Source: Desulfobacterales bacterium (lineage in GTDB: Bacteria; Desulfobacterota; Desulfobacteria; Desulfobacterales; JANQIE01). From it: a stretch of 36,594 bases of DNA. Below, in pieces: positions 11,098-21,597 of the stretch. Positions within the stretch are counted from its first letter, which is position 1, and each line of letters starts with the position of its first letter. The stretch is taken from contig JANQIE010000127.1 in assembly GCA_028282295.1 (NCBI GenBank), forward strand, positions 1 through 36,594. The letters run 5' to 3'. The notes beneath the pieces were generated by a model, which saw nothing but the letters and a program-made list of their open reading frames with translations, was not told the origin of the DNA and made no database searches. A program made the translations under genes and the position numbers.

Positions 11098-12348
11098 ATG
11101 AAAAAAATCTTGATTTTAGGGTCGGGTGCCGGCGGGACCATGGTAGCCGCGAAACTGCGTAAAGAGCTCAGTGACCTGGAATGGTCCATCACCATTATCG
11201 ACAATGATGAAATGCACCACTATCAACCCGGCTGGCTGTTTATCCCCTTCGGCATCTACACGGCCGAAGACTGTATGAAGCCCAAGCGGGATTTCATTCC
11301 CAAAGGGGTTAAATTCGTACTGGACGAAGTAGTCGGCGTTGATCCGGATAAAAGAATCGTTGAGGCCAAAAACGGTAAATACGATTATGATTGGCTGGTC
11401 ATCGCCACCGGCTGCCGCATCGCCCCCGAAGAAGTGGAAGGACTGGAAGACTGGACACCGGATCCCAAATCGAATGTCGGCACCTTTTTCACCATGGAAA
11501 GCGCCGTTGCCCTGTATAAAAAAATGAAGTACTTCAGGTCCGGCAAGTTTATTTTCAATATTGCCGAAATGCCTCATAAATGCCCGGTTGTTCCCATGGA
11601 GTTTATCTTCATGGCCGATTGGTTCTATGCTGTCAACGGCGTGCGGGACAACATTGAGATAGAATTTGTCACCCCCAACACCGGCATCTTCACCAAACCG
11701 ATTGCAACCAAGGTGCTCAGTGTCGCGGCGCAGGAAAAGAATATCATGGTGACCCCCAACTTCCACCTCACCACGGTCAATCAGGAAGAAAAATATATCG
11801 AATCGGCCACCGGCGACAGGATCGACTATGATCTGTTTATTTCGACGATGCCGAACCTGGGCGCCGACTATGTGGATGAATCCGGCCTGGGCGACGGGAT
11901 GGGGTATGCCCTGACCGACAACCACACTTTGAAACATGAAAAACACGACCACATCTATATCGTCGGCGACGCCACCAACGTGCCCACCTCCAAAGCCGGC
12001 TCTGTGGCGCACTACGAAGCGGAGATCGTCGTGGAAAACATGCTGCTGGAAATCGAGGGTCAGGAGCCGAAACCCTCCTTCGACGGGCACTCCACCTGCT
12101 TTATCGTTTCCGGCTACGACAAGGCCTACCTGTTCGACTTCAACTACAAGACCGAGCCGCTGCCGGGCAAATACCCATTCCCCGGCTTAGGGCCGTTTGA
12201 TCTGGTCGGCGAAAGCAATATCAACTACTGGGGCAAAATGATGTTCAAATGGGTTTATTGGAATTTACTGCTCACCGGCCAGGACCTGCCGTTGGAACCG
12301 CAGATGAACATGGCCGGCAAGAACTGGCCCAGTGTTGAAACGGAATAG
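11098..12348 (+). CDS. sqr: Sulfide:quinone oxidoreductase-like FAD flavoprotein
   Basis: The 416-residue product begins with a GxGxxG FAD-binding motif (ILGSGAGGTMVAAKL) followed by the acidic end of the second strand (IIDND). Cysteines lie at C59, C106 (ATGC), C162 (HKCPVVPMEF) and C334 (STCFIV). SQR uses two or three redox cysteines; C162 and C334 are placed like the pair that carries the polysulfide bridge. The C-terminus has an amphipathic segment (FKWVYWNLLLTGQDLP) that in SQR anchors to the membrane at the quinone site. The reaction would be sulfide to sulfur compounds with electrons to quinone. Ten bases downstream is a DUF1641 gene, a frequent partner. The direction and substrate in a sulfate reducer are uncertain. 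Confidence 0.85.
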   Translation: MKKILILGSGAGGTMVAAKLRKELSDLEWSITIIDNDEMHHYQPGWLFIPFGIYTAEDCMKPKRDFIPKGVKFVLDEVVGVDPDKRIVEAKNGKYDYDWLVIATGCRIAPEEVEGLEDWTPDPKSNVGTFFTMESAVALYKKMKYFRSGKFIFNIAEMPHKCPVVPMEFIFMADWFYAVNGVRDNIEIEFVTPNTGIFTKPIATKVLSVAAQEKNIMVTPNFHLTTVNQEEKYIESATGDRIDYDLFISTMPNLGADYVDESGLGDGMGYALTDNHTLKHEKHDHIYIVGDATNVPTSKAGSVAHYEAEIVVENMLLEIEGQEPKPSFDGHSTCFIVSGYDKAYLFDFNYKTEPLPGKYPFPGLGPFDLVGESNINYWGKMMFKWVYWNLLLTGQDLPLEPQMNMAGKNWPSVETE

Positions 12349-14379: not shown

Positions 14380-14546
14380 TGTGCCCATCCGGAAATAGTA
14401 GATTTTAGTTCAGGCCAAGGCTGCAGCGAATTTGAAACCGCAGGCGTAGCCTTACTACGTCGCAAGAACGTGGATGGCTACGCCATTATTTCAAATTCGT
14501 GCGAACACCGGCCTGGACCAAAAGATGCCATTTCCGGATGGGCACC
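14380..14546. repeat. Palindromic repeat family A, copy A2
   Basis: The left end GTGCCCATCCGGAAATAGTA pairs with the right end CATTTCCGGATGGGCAC. Inner arms are CCAAGGC/GGCCTGG-like and AATTTGAAA/TTTCAAATT. The apical stem GGCGTAG..CTACG is present. This copy has an extra segment of about 25 bases (14465-14490) on the right side compared with copy A3. Confidence 0.85.
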
Positions 14547-14772: not shown

Positions 14773-14853
14773 TAAGATCAATTGTTCCTCATTTTCGGCC
14801 TTTTGCTACCGGCGCGCTCACTTAAAAAAACAGATCATATTTGTATTGGCAGA

Positions 14854-16281
14854 ATGAAAACATCTGCGAATCAAAACCAGGAATCACAAGCCCAGCTCAC
14901 ATTCAAGGTCGGGCCGTACAAATTCGCAGTGGCGGCGGTGGATGTTGTTGCGATCATCCAGGTGCCGGTGTTCAGGCCCTTTGCCTCCACACAAAACGGC
15001 ATTGCCGGCGTGTTCGTGCATCGCGATCAGACGGCCACGATCATCAGCCTGCATCAAAAACTGGGGTTGCCCATGCCGGCCGACAAACAGGCCGGCCAAC
15101 TCATCCTCAGCCACATCGGCTCGGGGCTGACGGCGTTCTGGGTCGATGAGGTCCTTGACATGACGACAACCGAAGGCGTAACCCCTTTCAAATTATCGAC
15201 CGAGGCCTCCATTACCGCGTTTCACCGCTGTTTTATCAAGGACGACGCCATCTTTTATGAGACCGATTTCGAACGATTATTCGCCGTGCAGGCACCGGTC
15301 GAACTGGCTGAGGTCTCTCTGCCCGACGCTGAATCCAAGCCTCCGGCGGCTGAATCCGACAATTCACCCTCTTGCACCTCTTCACAGGATGCCGGCGGTT
15401 CGGATGACCGGACGCCGACAACAGGCTCCGAACTGCCAGACAGGGGCCAGTCTGACGCGGCGCAAATCATTGCAAAGCCCACAAGCCCCAGGGCACACAG
15501 ACCGCCAGCCCAAAAGCCGGTCGCGGCACGCAATGTTCCGGCAAAGCGCACACGCAGCGCCCGCAGCACACCACTCAAGTCATCCCTCCCGGCCGGACAG
15601 CCCCAAAGCCAACGCCTGCCTGACGAACAACACCGTCCTGCGACTATTTTGAAACGGCCATGGCTTTGGATGTTGCTCATCGTTGGTATCACAGCATCGC
15701 TTCTGCTTATGACCATCGACTTTCGTTCGCCGCAAAAATCGGACAAACCGCTTACCGCAAGCCAAACTGACCAAGCACGGGGCACAGCAGAGCCCAAGGT
15801 GTCCCCGCAACCTGTCATAGAAGAAGAACCGGCGGCGGAAGAAATGCGGACCGAGGCGCCCGCAATTACTGCGCAACCTGCCGACCCAACAGTTGCTGCT
15901 CCGAAACCGGATACCGCGCCACCCCCTGCGCCGCAGGCATCGACGTCCATCGCGATCGCAACCACCACGCCGCCGCCAAAAAAAGAAATCAACGTCAAGC
16001 AAATCCTGAAAATAGAAACAGAGGCGTTGCGGCTGACCATCGAACGTCCCGAAAAACCGGGCATCACAACGCCCTTGCCAAGCAAAACGGCTGAAACGAT
16101 TACCTCCGAAACCGTGCATGTGGTCGTCAAGGGCGACACCCTCTGGCACATTGCCATCCGGTATCTGGGCGACCCCTTGCGCTACCCGGAATTGGCAAAA
16201 CTAAGCCGGATCAAGGACCCGGATCTGATTTATCCCGGCGATATCATCCGTATCGTCAAACTAACGCAATCGACGCCCTGA
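14854..16281 (+). CDS. CheW domain-TM-LysM domain fusion protein
   Basis: The product has 475 residues. Residues about 13-148 match a CheW fold (LTFKVGPYKFAVAAVDVVAI, then GIAGVFVHRDQTATIISLHQ). A long Pro/Ala/Ser linker follows. One membrane helix is at about 270-290 (PWLWMLLIVGITASLLLM). A second Pro/Ala-rich linker leads to a LysM domain at 422-471 (HVVVKGDTLWHIAIRYLGD, ending PGDIIRIVKL). The layout predicts a cytoplasmic CheW module tied across the membrane to peptidoglycan. CheW normally couples receptors to CheA kinase, so this may fix a chemosensory array to the wall or sense wall state. No other che gene is nearby. The ATG at 14854 lacks a clear Shine-Dalgarno; a TTG 24 codons upstream is possible but gives no better start. 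Confidence 0.8.
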   Translation: MKTSANQNQESQAQLTFKVGPYKFAVAAVDVVAIIQVPVFRPFASTQNGIAGVFVHRDQTATIISLHQKLGLPMPADKQAGQLILSHIGSGLTAFWVDEVLDMTTTEGVTPFKLSTEASITAFHRCFIKDDAIFYETDFERLFAVQAPVELAEVSLPDAESKPPAAESDNSPSCTSSQDAGGSDDRTPTTGSELPDRGQSDAAQIIAKPTSPRAHRPPAQKPVAARNVPAKRTRSARSTPLKSSLPAGQPQSQRLPDEQHRPATILKRPWLWMLLIVGITASLLLMTIDFRSPQKSDKPLTASQTDQARGTAEPKVSPQPVIEEEPAAEEMRTEAPAITAQPADPTVAAPKPDTAPPPAPQASTSIAIATTTPPPKKEINVKQILKIETEALRLTIERPEKPGITTPLPSKTAETITSETVHVVVKGDTLWHIAIRYLGDPLRYPELAKLSRIKDPDLIYPGDIIRIVKLTQSTP

Positions 16282-16313
16282 TATAAACAGCCACCCCATT
16301 GAGGCTCGCGCTT

Positions 16314-18074
16314 ATGGCCGCCAAATCGAACGACCATCAGACAACCGAACCCGGCATCAACCAGATCGCCCAGGCGATCTTCGACGCCTACCAGGCATAC
16401 CACCACCGCTTCAAAACCTTCACCCGGCAAGTCGCTAACCACTTTCAAAAACGCGACTGGACCGCTTATCAAAAAGACGCCCTGAAACGGCTCGAACTTT
16501 ACCCGGCAGTAATCGATACCCAGGTACCGATCCTGCGCCGGCGGCTCAAGGGATTCACCAATGAGCACCAAAACCTGACCGCGTTGAAAAACGCCTATTT
16601 TGACTTGATCCGCGACTGCCCCAGTTGGGAAATTGCCGAAACCTTCTACAATTCGATCATTCGTCATGTTTTCGAAATCGTCGGCGTGGAGCCGGACATC
16701 GAGTTCGTCACCACCGGCATTCCGGAACCGCCGAACCGCGCCACCCGGCCGATCTACCAGACCTTTATTCCCAGCGGCGCCACCGCGCCTTTAATCCGCA
16801 CCATCGCGCAATTCTATGCACTGGCACCGGGCTTCGCGGACCTGGAACGCGACAGCCGCATTGTCGGCCAACGCATCGACGACCATCTGGCAAGCATCGG
16901 CGCCCTGCGCACCATTGACCGGGTCGAAATGGTCAACACCGCCTTTTATCGCGGCATGGGGGCCTATCTGATCGGGCGTCTGTACAGCGGATCGATGTGT
17001 CTGCCCCTGGTACTGGCCCTGGTAAACCGGCCCGCCGGGATCTGCATCGACGCCTTGCTGATGGAAGAGCGCCCCCTGAGCATCCTGTTCAGTTTCACGC
17101 GATCTTATTTCCATGTGGATATCGACCGGCCATCCAGTGTGGTGCGTTTCATCAAATCTTTGCTGCCGCGCAAACGCATCGCGGAAATTTACATCTCCTT
17201 AGGATACAACAAGCACGGTAAAACCGAACTGTTTCGGGAACTCCAGCAGCACCTGGCCTATTGTTGCGAGGAGCGCTTCGATTTTTCCCGCGGCAAACGC
17301 GGCATGGTGATGCTGGTCTACAACATGCCCAACGACGACCTGGTGTTCAAAATCATTCGCGACCGGTTTGCCCAACCCAAAAAAGCGACCCATGAAGATG
17401 TGCGCCGCAAGTACGATCTGGTGTTCAAACATGATCGCGCCGGCCGTTTGGTGGACACCCAGGAATTTGACTACCTCAAGTTTCATCCCTGCTGCTTCAG
17501 CGATGATCTGATGGCGGCCTTTACCCAAAAAGCCCGCCGCACCGTCATCATCGACCCGGAGGCGGTTGTGTTCAAGCATGTCTACGTCCAGCGCCGAGTC
17601 ATCCCCCTGGACATTTACATCAAGGAGGCTGACCACAAAGCAGCCGAAGCCGCCGTGCGTGATTTCGGCCAAACAATCAAAGACCTTGCCGCCGGCAACA
17701 TCTTTCCCGGCGATCTGCTGCTCAAAAACTTCGGGGTTACCCCCAAGGGCCGGGTGGTTTTCTACGACTACGACGAGTTAACCCTGGTGACCGACTGTAA
17801 CTTTCGAAATATGCCCCAAGCCGTCACCGAAGATGACGAACTAGCCGGCGAACCCTGGTTCTACGTGGATGAAAATGATGTATTTCCACAGGAACTGCAA
17901 AACTTTCTCGGATTGGCGCCCGCGTTAAAACAGATTTTCATGCAGCACCATGACGATCTGTTCACGGTGGCGTTTTGGGAGCAAATCAAACAACGGCTGC
18001 TCGCAGGGCAGATCATGCCTATTTTCCCCTACGCTGCCGCCGAACGACTTGGTACGCACGAAGCAATCAATTAA
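16314..18074 (+). CDS. aceK: Isocitrate dehydrogenase kinase/phosphatase
   Basis: The 586-residue product is close to the usual 570-600 for AceK. It reversibly phosphorylates isocitrate dehydrogenase; the phosphorylated enzyme is inactive, which sends isocitrate into the glyoxylate bypass. The N-terminal regulatory half begins IFDAYQAYHHRFKTFTRQV. The kinase half has the nucleotide loop RGKRGMVMLVYNMP and the lysine segment DLVFKIIRDRF, and later NFGVTPKGRVVFYDYDE. Single enzyme does both reactions at one site. I chose the ATG at 16314, nine bases after GAGG. It lies upstream of aceB and aceA, while in enterobacteria the order is aceB-aceA-aceK. AceK is rare outside Gamma- and Betaproteobacteria in my knowledge. 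Confidence 0.93.
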   Translation: MAAKSNDHQTTEPGINQIAQAIFDAYQAYHHRFKTFTRQVANHFQKRDWTAYQKDALKRLELYPAVIDTQVPILRRRLKGFTNEHQNLTALKNAYFDLIRDCPSWEIAETFYNSIIRHVFEIVGVEPDIEFVTTGIPEPPNRATRPIYQTFIPSGATAPLIRTIAQFYALAPGFADLERDSRIVGQRIDDHLASIGALRTIDRVEMVNTAFYRGMGAYLIGRLYSGSMCLPLVLALVNRPAGICIDALLMEERPLSILFSFTRSYFHVDIDRPSSVVRFIKSLLPRKRIAEIYISLGYNKHGKTELFRELQQHLAYCCEERFDFSRGKRGMVMLVYNMPNDDLVFKIIRDRFAQPKKATHEDVRRKYDLVFKHDRAGRLVDTQEFDYLKFHPCCFSDDLMAAFTQKARRTVIIDPEAVVFKHVYVQRRVIPLDIYIKEADHKAAEAAVRDFGQTIKDLAAGNIFPGDLLLKNFGVTPKGRVVFYDYDELTLVTDCNFRNMPQAVTEDDELAGEPWFYVDENDVFPQELQNFLGLAPALKQIFMQHHDDLFTVAFWEQIKQRLLAGQIMPIFPYAAAERLGTHEAIN

Positions 18075-18437
18075 AGCCCAATCCACAAAGGGCCGTTTCC
18101 GGATCAGCACCAACTGCCGTAAACATTGTATTTAGCGAAAGAGTGGCTATATTTTGAAAAACCGTAAATAAGAACAGTTTGTTGAAATTCCAACGGATCC
18201 ACGTCCGGCCCCGGTTACCTTGAATTGCGTCGCCCCCCCCTCACACCACATTCTGCCCCATGCTCTTTCTAAACCCTTTTGTCACTGGATGGTAACCAAA
18301 ATTAGAACAACCAATCGTGTCCATCCGCAAACCGTATCTCTATCGCGGAACCAGCCGTAGACGCCGAACCCGGCGCCGTTCTCCCGCGGCCGTTGCCGAG
18401 CGGACACCAATCAGCCACACGAACAGGAGAAGAGACT
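18075..18437. other. Gene-free region between aceK and aceB
   Basis: No gene seen. A fragment TTTCCGGATCAGCACCAAC at 18096-18114 resembles one end of repeat family A. A weak promoter-like pair TTGTCA (18279) and TTAGAA (18302) with 17 bases between may serve aceB. The remainder has no recognisable structure. Confidence 0.45.
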
Positions 18438-20036
18438 ATGGAAGCCACCTTATCCGTCGACGGGATAGACGTTTTCGGTGCTGTCCCCGACCCATTTGCC
18501 GGGATTCTGACTCCCGAGGCGCTCCGCTTCGCGGGCGCCCTCGCCCGCGAATTTGACGCCCGCCGCATTGAACTCTTGGAACGCCGCAAGTACATTCAAA
18601 CCCAAATCGACAAAGGCCACCTGCCCGACTTTTTGCCGGAAACCAGATCCATCCGGGAGAGCGACTGGCGCGTTGCCCCGATCCCGGCTGATCTTCAGGA
18701 CCGGCGGGTGGAAATCACCGGTCCGGTCGACCGCAAAATGATCATCAACGCCCTGAACTCCGGGGCCAAAACGTACATGGCCGATTTCGAGGATTCCCAC
18801 GCACCCACCTGGCGCGGCACCATCGAAGGCCAGATCAACCTGCACGACGCGGTCAACGGCACCATCGAATTTACCAGCCCGGAGGGCAAACAGTACCACG
18901 TGGGCCCCGATCCGGCGACCCTGATCGTACGACCGCGTGGCTGGCATCTGGTGGAAAAACACGTGCAGGTGGATGGCGCCCCCATTTCCGCCAGCCTGTT
19001 CGACTTCGGCCTTTACTTCTTTCACAATGCCGCCAAATTGATGCAAAACGGCACCGGTCCCTATTTTTATCTTCCCAAGCTGGAAAGTCATCTGGAAGCA
19101 CGCCTCTGGAACGATGTATTCCTGTCGGCGCAGGAAAAGCTGGGCATCGCGCCGGGCACCATCAAGGCCACCGTGCTGATTGAAACCATCCTGGCCGCCT
19201 TCGAGACCGAAGAGATTCTTTACGAACTAAAAGAACACATGGCGGGCCTGAATTGCGGACGCTGGGATTACATCTTCAGTTTCATCAAAAAATTCAAAAA
19301 CATTCCGGCCTACATCTTCCCGGACCGCGCCCAAATCACCATGACACGGCATTGCATGCATTCGTATTCCCTGCTGGTGATCAAAACCTGCCACCGGCGC
19401 GGCGCCCACGCCATCGGCGGGATGGCGGCCCAGATCCCGATCAAAGGCGATGCCGAAGCCAATCGCGCCGCCCTGCAAAAAGTACGGGAAGACAAGATCC
19501 GGGAAGCCGGCGACGGCCATGACGGCACCTGGGTGGCCCATCCGGGGCTGGTGGGCATCGCTCTTGAAGAGTTCAATACCGCCATGCCGACGCCCAACCA
19601 GGTCGACCTGTTGCGCGAAGACGTCAACATCACCGCCGCCGACCTGCTCAAACTGCCCCAGGGCACGATCACAGAGGCGGGCCTGCGCGGGAACATCGAC
19701 GTCGGTATCCAATACCTGGCGGCCTGGCTCAGCGGCAATGGCTGCGTCCCGCTCTACAACCTGATGGAAGACGCCGCCACCGCCGAAATCTCGCGCACCC
19801 AGGTTTGGCAATGGGTTCACCATCCCAGGGGCGTTTTGGAAGACGGCCGTGATGTGACCCTGGAACTTGTGCGTCACATCACCCGGGAAGAACTGGACAA
19901 GCTAAAAACCACGCTGGGTCCGGAACGATACGAAGCCGGCAAATTTGAACCGGCGGCGCGCCTGTTCGACGAAATCATTGCCGCCGAGACGCTGGAGGAA
20001 TTTCTTACATTAAAGGCATATGAACATTACGATTAA
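18438..20036 (+). CDS. aceB: Malate synthase A
   Basis: The 532-residue product matches the A-type length (about 530). It condenses glyoxylate with acetyl-CoA to malate, in the cytoplasm. The family signature [17 protein letters not shown] is intact. [13 protein letters not shown] supplies an active-site arginine, and [10 protein letters not shown] follows in the core. I chose the ATG at 18438 because AGGAGAAGAG precedes it; a longer frame starts in unconserved DNA. Isocitrate lyase follows after 220 bases that hold repeat A3. Confidence 0.95.
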
Positions 20037-20080
20037 CCAGGACGTCACAACCTTATCGAAAAAGCCGTTTTATCGTGCCC

Positions 20081-20232
20081 AACTGGTATCCATCCGGAAA
20101 TAGTAGATTTTGGTCCAGGCCGAGGCCGCAACGAATTTGAAACCGCAGGCGTAGCAAAGCTACGTCGAGGATGTCAAACTCGTGAAAACGCCGGCCTGGG
20201 CCAAAAGATGCTATTTCCGGTTGGATACCAAC
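20081..20232. repeat. Palindromic repeat family A, copy A3 (best preserved)
   Basis: Ends AACTGGTATCCATCCGGAAA and TTTCCGGTTGGATACCAACT are nearly complementary. Inner arms TTTTGGTCCAGGC/GCCTGGGCCAAAA and CGAATTTGA/TCAAACTCG also pair. The apical stem is GGCGTAGCAAAGCTACGTC. A transcript could fold into one hairpin of about 150 bases. It lies between aceB and aceA on the same transcript direction. Confidence 0.9.
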
Positions 20233-20256
20233 TAAAAAATCGAAAGGATGGTCAAT

Positions 20257-21597
20257 ATGCTAACCATAGAAGAAAAAGCCATTAAACTCAAAGAACGCAT
20301 CGAAAGTCATGATATCGACCCCGAGGCCGTGGCCGAAAAGAAATACCTCTGGAGCAACGATCCGCGCTGGGAAGGTATCGTGCGCCCCTACAGTCCGGAA
20401 GAAATGTTGCGGCTGCGCGGCACCTTGAAAATTGAGCACACCTTTGCCAAAGCCGGCGCCAAACGGCTGTGGCATTTACTGCAAACCGAAGACTACGTGG
20501 CGGCCCTGGGCGCGCTGACCGGCAACCAGGCCGTGCAACAGGTTGAAGCCGGCTTGAAGGCGATCTACTTGAGCGGATGGCAAGTTGCGGCCGATAACAA
20601 CTTATCCTACGAAATGTACCCCGACCAAAGCCTTTATCCCGCCAACAGCGTCCCGGTGGTTGTCAAACGGATCAACAACGCCTTGCGCCGGGCCGACCAA
20701 ATCCAGGTTTTGGACGGCCGTAAAAGCGGGCCCTATTGGTACGCCCCCATCGTGGCCGATGCCGAAGCCGGTTTCGGCGGACCGCTGAATGCTTTCGAAC
20801 TGATGAAGCAAATGGTCGATGCCGGCGCCGCCGGGGTTCATTTCGAAGACCAACTGGCGTCGGCCAAAAAATGTGGTCACATGGGCGGCAAAGTCCTGGT
20901 GCCGACCCGCGAATTTATCATCAAACTGATCGCAGCCCGGCTGGCCGCCGATATTTGCGGGGTCCCCACCGTGCTCATTGCGCGCACCGACGCCGAAGCC
21001 GCCAAACTCATCACCAGCGATGTGGACGAGCGCGATAAACCCTTTTTAAGAGGCGGCGAAAGAACCTCGGAAGGCTTTTTCTACATCAGCGGCGGTTTGG
21101 ATGCAGCCATTGCCAGGGGCCTCTCCTACGCCCCCTATGCCGATATGATCTGGTGTGAAACATCGCACCCGGATTTAGAAGAAGCCCAAAGATTTGCCGA
21201 GGGCATTCATGCAAAATTTCCCGACAAACTGCTTTGCTATAACTGCTCGCCCTCATTCAACTGGAAGGGTAACCTTGACAATGCCACCATCGCCAAGTTC
21301 CAGCGCGAGCTGGCCGCCATGGGGTACAAATTCCAGTTTGTCACCCTGGCCGGATTTCACTCCCTGAACATGGGGATGTTCGACCTGGCCTACACCTACA
21401 ACAAAGAAGGCATGCTGGCCTATTCCGAATTTCAACAGCAGGAATTCGCCCATGAAAAGAAGGAAGGCTACATGGCCATTACCCATCAAAAGTTCGTCGG
21501 CACCGGCTACTTCGACCGGGTAATGAGCTGCGTTTCCGGCGGTGATACCTCCGTAAAAGCGCTGACAGGATCGACCGAAGAGGATCAGTTCAAATAA
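20257..21597 (+). CDS. aceA: Isocitrate lyase
   Basis: The 446-residue product is about the usual bacterial length (430-445). It splits isocitrate into succinate and glyoxylate, the first bypass step. The signature [16 protein letters not shown] holds the catalytic cysteine C206. [19 protein letters not shown] is the metal and substrate region, and the C-terminal lid has SPSFNW. I chose the second ATG at 20257 (MLTIEEKA) because GAAAGGA lies eight bases upstream; the ATG at 20248 overlaps that site. The convergent rseC ends five bases downstream. Confidence 0.95.

Follow-up and report, generated by a model that had tools for sequence, protein, structure and literature searches.

Detailed knowledge of how chemosensory arrays find and keep their place in the cell is limited to a handful of systems, all of which rely on several proteins. 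In Vibrio, HubP is targeted to the cell pole by its LysM domain and places the arrays through ParC and ParP, according to the available excerpt of the source (PMC8789113). In Pseudomonas putida, FimV binds the cell wall through its LysM domain, and the chemotaxis system depends on this protein for its placement, as described in the accessible part of the report (PMC12918733). ParP, for its part, is described in an excerpt of a further source as inserting a CheW/P5-like domain into the arrays (PMC5706961). We analyzed a DNA stretch of 36,594 nucleotides (hereafter the window) from a Desulfobacterales bacterium, in which one gene codes for a protein joining a CheW domain, a membrane helix and a LysM domain. 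Among the matches listed in the open-access literature, no description of a CheW–LysM protein was found.

The window protein shares a full-length CheW fold with the CheW coupling protein (PF01584); of the four receptor-groove positions, three are hydrophobic. Unlike CheW, it is membrane-bound and joined to a LysM domain, and the NLRG motif, an important hallmark of the CheW surface, is mostly lost among its relatives. CheV also carries a CheW domain fused to another module, which in that case is a receiver domain, whereas Pfam recognizes no receiver in the window protein. HubP and FimV resemble it more in layout, as they consist of one chain with a periplasmic LysM domain, one membrane helix and a long cytoplasmic part which, in the portions of the sources available, recruits partners (PMC8789113, PMC12918733). 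In contrast to them, the order of the parts and the predicted topology are reversed, with the N-terminus inside and the LysM domain C-terminal, and the window protein carries the CheW domain itself. No match to FimV_core (TIGR03505) was obtained with NCBIfam at E ≤ 0.01, the only LysM matches at this threshold being PRK11198 and SafA-type models, and no TPR match was found with Pfam. The original prediction had stated that CheW is not part of FimV-like proteins, and this holds, given the lack of an NCBIfam FimV match and the reversed order. The protein was thus assigned neither to FimV/HubP nor to CheV, whose tested features it does not show. With wall-binding LysM proteins such as YgaU (PRK11198), it has only the LysM domain in common, which is of similar type and scores 35.3 bits, below the cut-off of 134. 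The likeness to ParP, acting with ParC, lies in a CheW/P5-like domain on a Pro-rich linker which couples arrays to a positional anchor (PMC5706961, in part). By its description in the same excerpt, ParP has neither membrane helix nor LysM domain and reaches its anchor via ParC (PMC5706961). The window gene, in contrast, has an Rrf2 regulator and aceK as neighbors and lies outside any che operon and not next to parC; on this gene setting and on the description of ParP, it was set apart from the latter.

Domain layout and predicted topology

Pfam recognized two domains in the window protein, CheW at residues 15-106 (45.6 bits against a cut-off of 23.5, E 7e-12) and LysM at residues 422-467 (38.5 bits against a cut-off of 20.9, E 1e-9), and no extra sensory domain. 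In the AF2 full-length model, the CheW fold is followed by the membrane helix and by a LysM-like strand-helix-helix-strand end at 415-472, with pLDDT < 50 at 158-264, 292-355 and 357-414 (Table 1). The union of CheW, membrane helix and LysM in one chain, as originally predicted, is therefore borne out by Pfam, AF2, hydropathy and Foldseek, and the long Pro/Ala linkers of the same prediction correspond to the disordered stretches between the domains of this model.

Table 1. Features of the CheW–LysM gene and its product, in window coordinates.
Feature	Position	Strand	Basis
CheW-TM-LysM protein, 475 aa plus stop	14854..16281	+	intact frame; start region common to homologs
CheW fold, residues about 12-144	14887..15285	+	Pfam CheW 15-106; AF2 strands and helix to 144; Foldseek
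Arg57, equivalent of the CheW NLRG arginine	15022..15024	+	kept here; 7/32 members
Cytoplasmic disordered linker, residues about 145-268	15286..15657	+	pLDDT < 50 at 158-264
Single transmembrane helix, residues 269-287	15658..15714	+	AF2 helix 269-287; hydropathy peak 270-288
Periplasmic Pro/Ala-rich linker, residues 288-421	15715..16116	+	mostly pLDDT < 50
LysM domain, residues 422-467	16117..16254	+	Pfam LysM; identical coordinates in genome search; conserved block HxVVKGDTLWxIA

An upstream in-frame TTG at 14782 would add 24 residues to the protein. Its homologs begin at or near the ATG and have no hydrophobic leader, which favors the ATG and a cytoplasmic N-terminus. When the positive-inside rule was applied to 16 proteins, the charge before the helix was higher in 10, equal in 2 and lower in 4. 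Since the window protein itself is a tie, its probable topology, with the CheW domain inside the cell and the LysM domain in the periplasm, rests mainly on domain logic.

Across the window genome, CheW was found above the cut-off at 12 places, of which the protein studied here is the weakest, and LysM at 10 places. A contig shared with a che cluster of this genome also codes for a 191-aa protein composed of an N-terminal hydrophobic stretch and a LysM domain (L215:16587-17162).

The CheW–helix–LysM family and its distribution

A search for the same architecture, named in the original prediction as a check, revealed that the CheW–helix–LysM layout recurs in Gammaproteobacteria MAGs and in the window's class. 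When named genomes were scanned for the window protein, 65 loci were obtained. Reading of the frames in the first 17 of them (L013-L029) placed CheW and LysM together in a single frame in 14, including L014, where the contig start truncates CheW; the genes of L019 and L021 are cut at contig ends. L025 was dropped from the family, as its protein (L025:143-1513) has no CheW but, besides a membrane helix, a pair of LysM domains of the same type. The carriers among these loci are Gammaproteobacteria MAGs, some of which are labelled Ectothiorhodospiraceae. In the other 48 loci, a profile search at E ≤ 0.01 gave a clear CheW-like plus LysM protein only in L032, from a Nitrospirae MAG.

In the window's class, both halves were found in one frame in at least 4 of 291 genomes, the window genome included, this being a lower bound because only the top 4 candidates per genome were scored. 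A sample of 40 relatives contained the full-length protein in the window genome and in 1 of the 39 others. The gammaproteobacterial class sample, also a lower bound as only the top 3 candidates per genome were scored, gave both halves in one frame in at least 11 of 369 genomes, halves side by side in different frames in at least 2 more, and, in at least 7 further genomes, a short CheW, a single half, or two halves on distinct contigs. Of the 54 genomes in the order of G305, 14 have the two halves in a single frame, and in 3 others (G304, G710 and G711) contig ends cut or split them.

Both Pfam domains are present in each of the 15 sequences of alignment A1, with CheW at E ≤ 0.001 throughout. 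In a larger set of 32 members, which leaves out L014 (CheW cut) and L032 (triple CheW) and in which L195 (G438, halves in different frames) is not counted, a membrane helix follows the CheW domain in every case and the LysM motif is in frame in 31, the exception being L197, whose LysM lies in a neighboring frame. The constant presence of both domains in A1 and of the helix in all 32 members indicates that the CheW–LysM join is not due to chance, and CheW–helix–LysM is a real protein family. That the gene is an assembly artefact or a functionless chance fusion is a negligible possibility: the draft state of the window genome (326 contigs) is the only point found in its favor, and it is refuted by conservation, as the same domain order occurs in many independent genomes of three groups, with intact frames and conserved sequence blocks.

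Among the members, the cytoplasmic linker spans 115-530 residues (median 195, 32 members) and the periplasmic one 69-249 residues (median 147, n = 31); both are long and disordered, with little conservation. The LysM block HxVVKGDTLWxIA..Y...P..Y.ELA hardly varies. The periplasmic linker of most members also contains a short conserved stretch like GITIxLExP (A1 columns about 660-690).

The Nitrospirae protein (L032:3472-6216, 915 residues) is built differently, with three CheW stretches followed by a long charged stretch rich in Glu, Ala and Arg, a membrane helix and a LysM domain. Of 14 genomes in the class of this MAG, 7 contain a CheW-to-LysM protein of this form in a single frame, 1 has a cut frame and 6 have none. 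The same architecture, with three CheW-like domains, is found in the Nitrospirota proteins L206-L211. The CheW–LysM link may have arisen more than once, with a single CheW domain in the form of Gammaproteobacteria and the window's class and three in that of Nitrospirota.

Fold and surface of the CheW domain

The original prediction had set structure prediction as the test of its CheW assignment, and this assignment stands. The AF2 model of residues 1-166, built from a 14-row alignment with 13 relatives, has a mean pLDDT of 80.9 and a pTM of 0.75, and all 18 PDB matches obtained with Foldseek at E ≤ 0.001 are CheW or CheA-P5. In addition, a profile of the family N-terminal domain retrieved six CheW sequences from the PDB by sequence alone (best E 1e-15). 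The N-terminal domain is thereby confirmed as a CheW fold.

In CheW from T. maritima, the residues of the receptor groove are L14, V27, I30 and V33, according to the part of the source available (PMC5706961, section 9). These positions were mapped onto the family through the alignment. The L14 equivalent is L, I or V and the V33 equivalent hydrophobic in all 32 members, and the I30 equivalent is V or I in 30, while the position of V27 is occupied by T, S or A in 29 of the 32. The NLRG arginine is found in only 7 of 32 members, compared with 7 of 7 canonical CheWs of the window genome; the window protein is among those that keep it, with the next Gly replaced by Asp. Residues new to the CheW domain and specific to the family were also found (VGP..CC and F.H.G). 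As judged from the alignment, the family CheW domain appears to have mostly kept the receptor groove and mostly lost NLRG, its surface having diverged. The rarity of the NLRG arginine, together with T, S or A at the V27 position, implies that the domain may bind receptors or CheA less well or not at all.

In a tree of the 32 member CheW domains and the seven canonical CheWs of the window genome, the canonical ones are set apart (100/99), although one member, L196 from G631, falls on their side of the midpoint root. The window domain belongs to a set of six (97/92) together with three others of the window's class and two gammaproteobacterial domains. The finer branching order is unsure because several branches are long. 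Taken as it stands, the tree would fit a horizontal spread between the window's class and Gammaproteobacteria.

Genomic setting and putative role

Of 22 genomes searched for the CheA dimerization domain, 21 have it above the cut-off. By frame reading, 19 of these 22 are carriers of the CheW–LysM gene, and CheA is present in 18 of them; the search gave none in G298, whose genome measures 2.1 Mb. Among the genomes of the G305 order, a strong CheA (E < 1e-10) was obtained in 16 of 17 carriers, three of which have cut or split genes (G304, G710 and G711), versus 16 of 37 non-carriers, G717 (short CheW only) being counted among the latter (Fisher p = 3.3e-4, uncorrected for kinship). The carrier G723 has only a weak CheA match.

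The CheW–LysM gene itself has housekeeping surroundings and is almost never beside che genes. It follows a ksgA-like gene in 8 loci and an acyltransferase-like gene in 7, and lies beside rpsF/rplI-like genes in 3, these names being read from the sequences and not from family searches. The exception is one of the two G713 copies, located behind chpA, a CheW-like gene and then a UDG-superfamily gene, all on the same strand (L194:319-9511). Genes of GGDEF/EAL, histidine kinase or SpoIIE type occur near some copies, their kind and place not being constant. An operon with a chemotaxis function is unsupported, the loci being housekeeping contexts. At L013:7423-7908, the CheW–LysM gene adjoins a small gene that has relatives in 6 further loci and stands at position +1 in all but one of the 7; some copies contain an HExxH-like motif, and no Pfam match was found at E ≤ 0.001.

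In the window, 17 bases separate the CheW–LysM stop from the aceK frame, and aceK, malate synthase and isocitrate lyase directly follow the gene (16299-21597). Upstream, a palindromic repeat of roughly 165 bases (14381-14545) looks like a MITE or REP-type element; of 638 candidate copies in the genome, 40 were scored, giving about 40 scored copies with 87-93% identity. Elsewhere in the window, 11098-12348 gives a full-length NCBIfam match to the type III sulfide quinone reductase, selenoprotein subtype.

In the order of G305, 49 of the 54 genomes, most carriers among them, have FimV_core above the cut-off, and a replacement of FimV was set aside since carriers do not simply lack it. CheA clusters were taken from 13 of 17 carriers and 7 of 16 strong-CheA non-carriers, and a ParA-type ATPase motif was present in 13 of 13 of the former versus 4 of 7 of the latter, of which one cluster is cut to 4.8 kb. 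With this motif in every carrier cluster, a replacement of ParC/ParP in Gammaproteobacteria is unsupported. In the window's class, a motif search detected the ParA-type motif in 0 of 7 CheA clusters of four carriers. As FimV_core and ParA-type genes are present in carriers, the CheW–LysM protein seems not to fill a gap left by them.

We propose, with confidence evenly divided for and against, that this protein is a wall-tethered and diverged CheW-type adaptor which tethers a chemosensory array, combining the role of HubP, ParC and ParP in one chain. Array docking, wall binding and placement would proceed as follows. The CheW domain, in the cytoplasm, would dock on chemoreceptor tips and/or CheA within the array, where it would take the place of a minor fraction of the ordinary CheW. 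The long cytoplasmic linker would bridge the base layer of the array to the membrane, which is crossed by the helix, and the LysM domain would grip peptidoglycan and hold the array, or a nascent array, at a place defined by the wall such as the pole. One molecule would hence do the work of HubP as LysM anchor, of ParC and of ParP as CheW-like array insert in Vibrio; in gammaproteobacterial carriers, it would act beside ParC/ParP and not instead of them. An array-to-wall tie is made plausible by the co-occurrence with CheA, the apparently partly kept receptor groove and the long linkers. The conserved layout, the G713 copy behind chpA and the precedents of HubP and FimV also speak for it. The inner membrane lies roughly 25 nm from the array base layer, and even the shortest cytoplasmic linker (115 residues) has a contour of ~40 nm, which exceeds this gap and counts for a tether. 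The changes at the NLRG arginine and the V27 position, the housekeeping loci and the absence of a visible vacancy for an anchor count against it, as do the weak CheA match of G723, the missing one of G298 and the fact that the CheA association is uncorrected for kinship.

Alternatively, the CheW fold may have been repurposed, binding neither CheA nor receptors and carrying another client, for instance an envelope or cyclic-di-GMP protein, to the wall. The loss of NLRG in most members, the altered groove position and the new family-specific residues speak for such a change of partner, as do the nearly complete lack of adjoining che genes and the proximity of some copies to genes of GGDEF/EAL, histidine kinase or SpoIIE type. 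We nevertheless consider it unlikely, because strong CheA is enriched in carriers, the rest of the receptor groove is retained and the neighboring signaling genes are inconstant in kind and place. It was also proposed in the original prediction that the protein could report the state of the wall. LysM engagement or wall–membrane tension would then shift the seating of CheW and adjust CheA activity, making the protein a sensor input and not a passive anchor. The anatomy is the same as for a tether, and peptidoglycan stress has been linked to the Wsp chemosensory-like system, in the excerpt of the source available (PMC9600634). Such a function is quite improbable, as Pfam recognizes no extra sensory domain and both linkers, being long, disordered and poorly conserved, are a poor route for passing a conformational change.

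Returning to the wall-tethered adaptor, it is conceivable, though we lean slightly against it, that these proteins form a new class of coupling proteins linking the cytoplasmic chemosensory lattice to peptidoglycan across the inner membrane in one chain, perhaps with multiple origins, and giving arrays a wall-directed place or an input on wall state with no need for a distinct landmark protein. If true, such a link would allow the placement of arrays to be tested with a single deletion and a single domain swap, and the roles of CheW would extend from signaling adaptor to cell-organizing tether.
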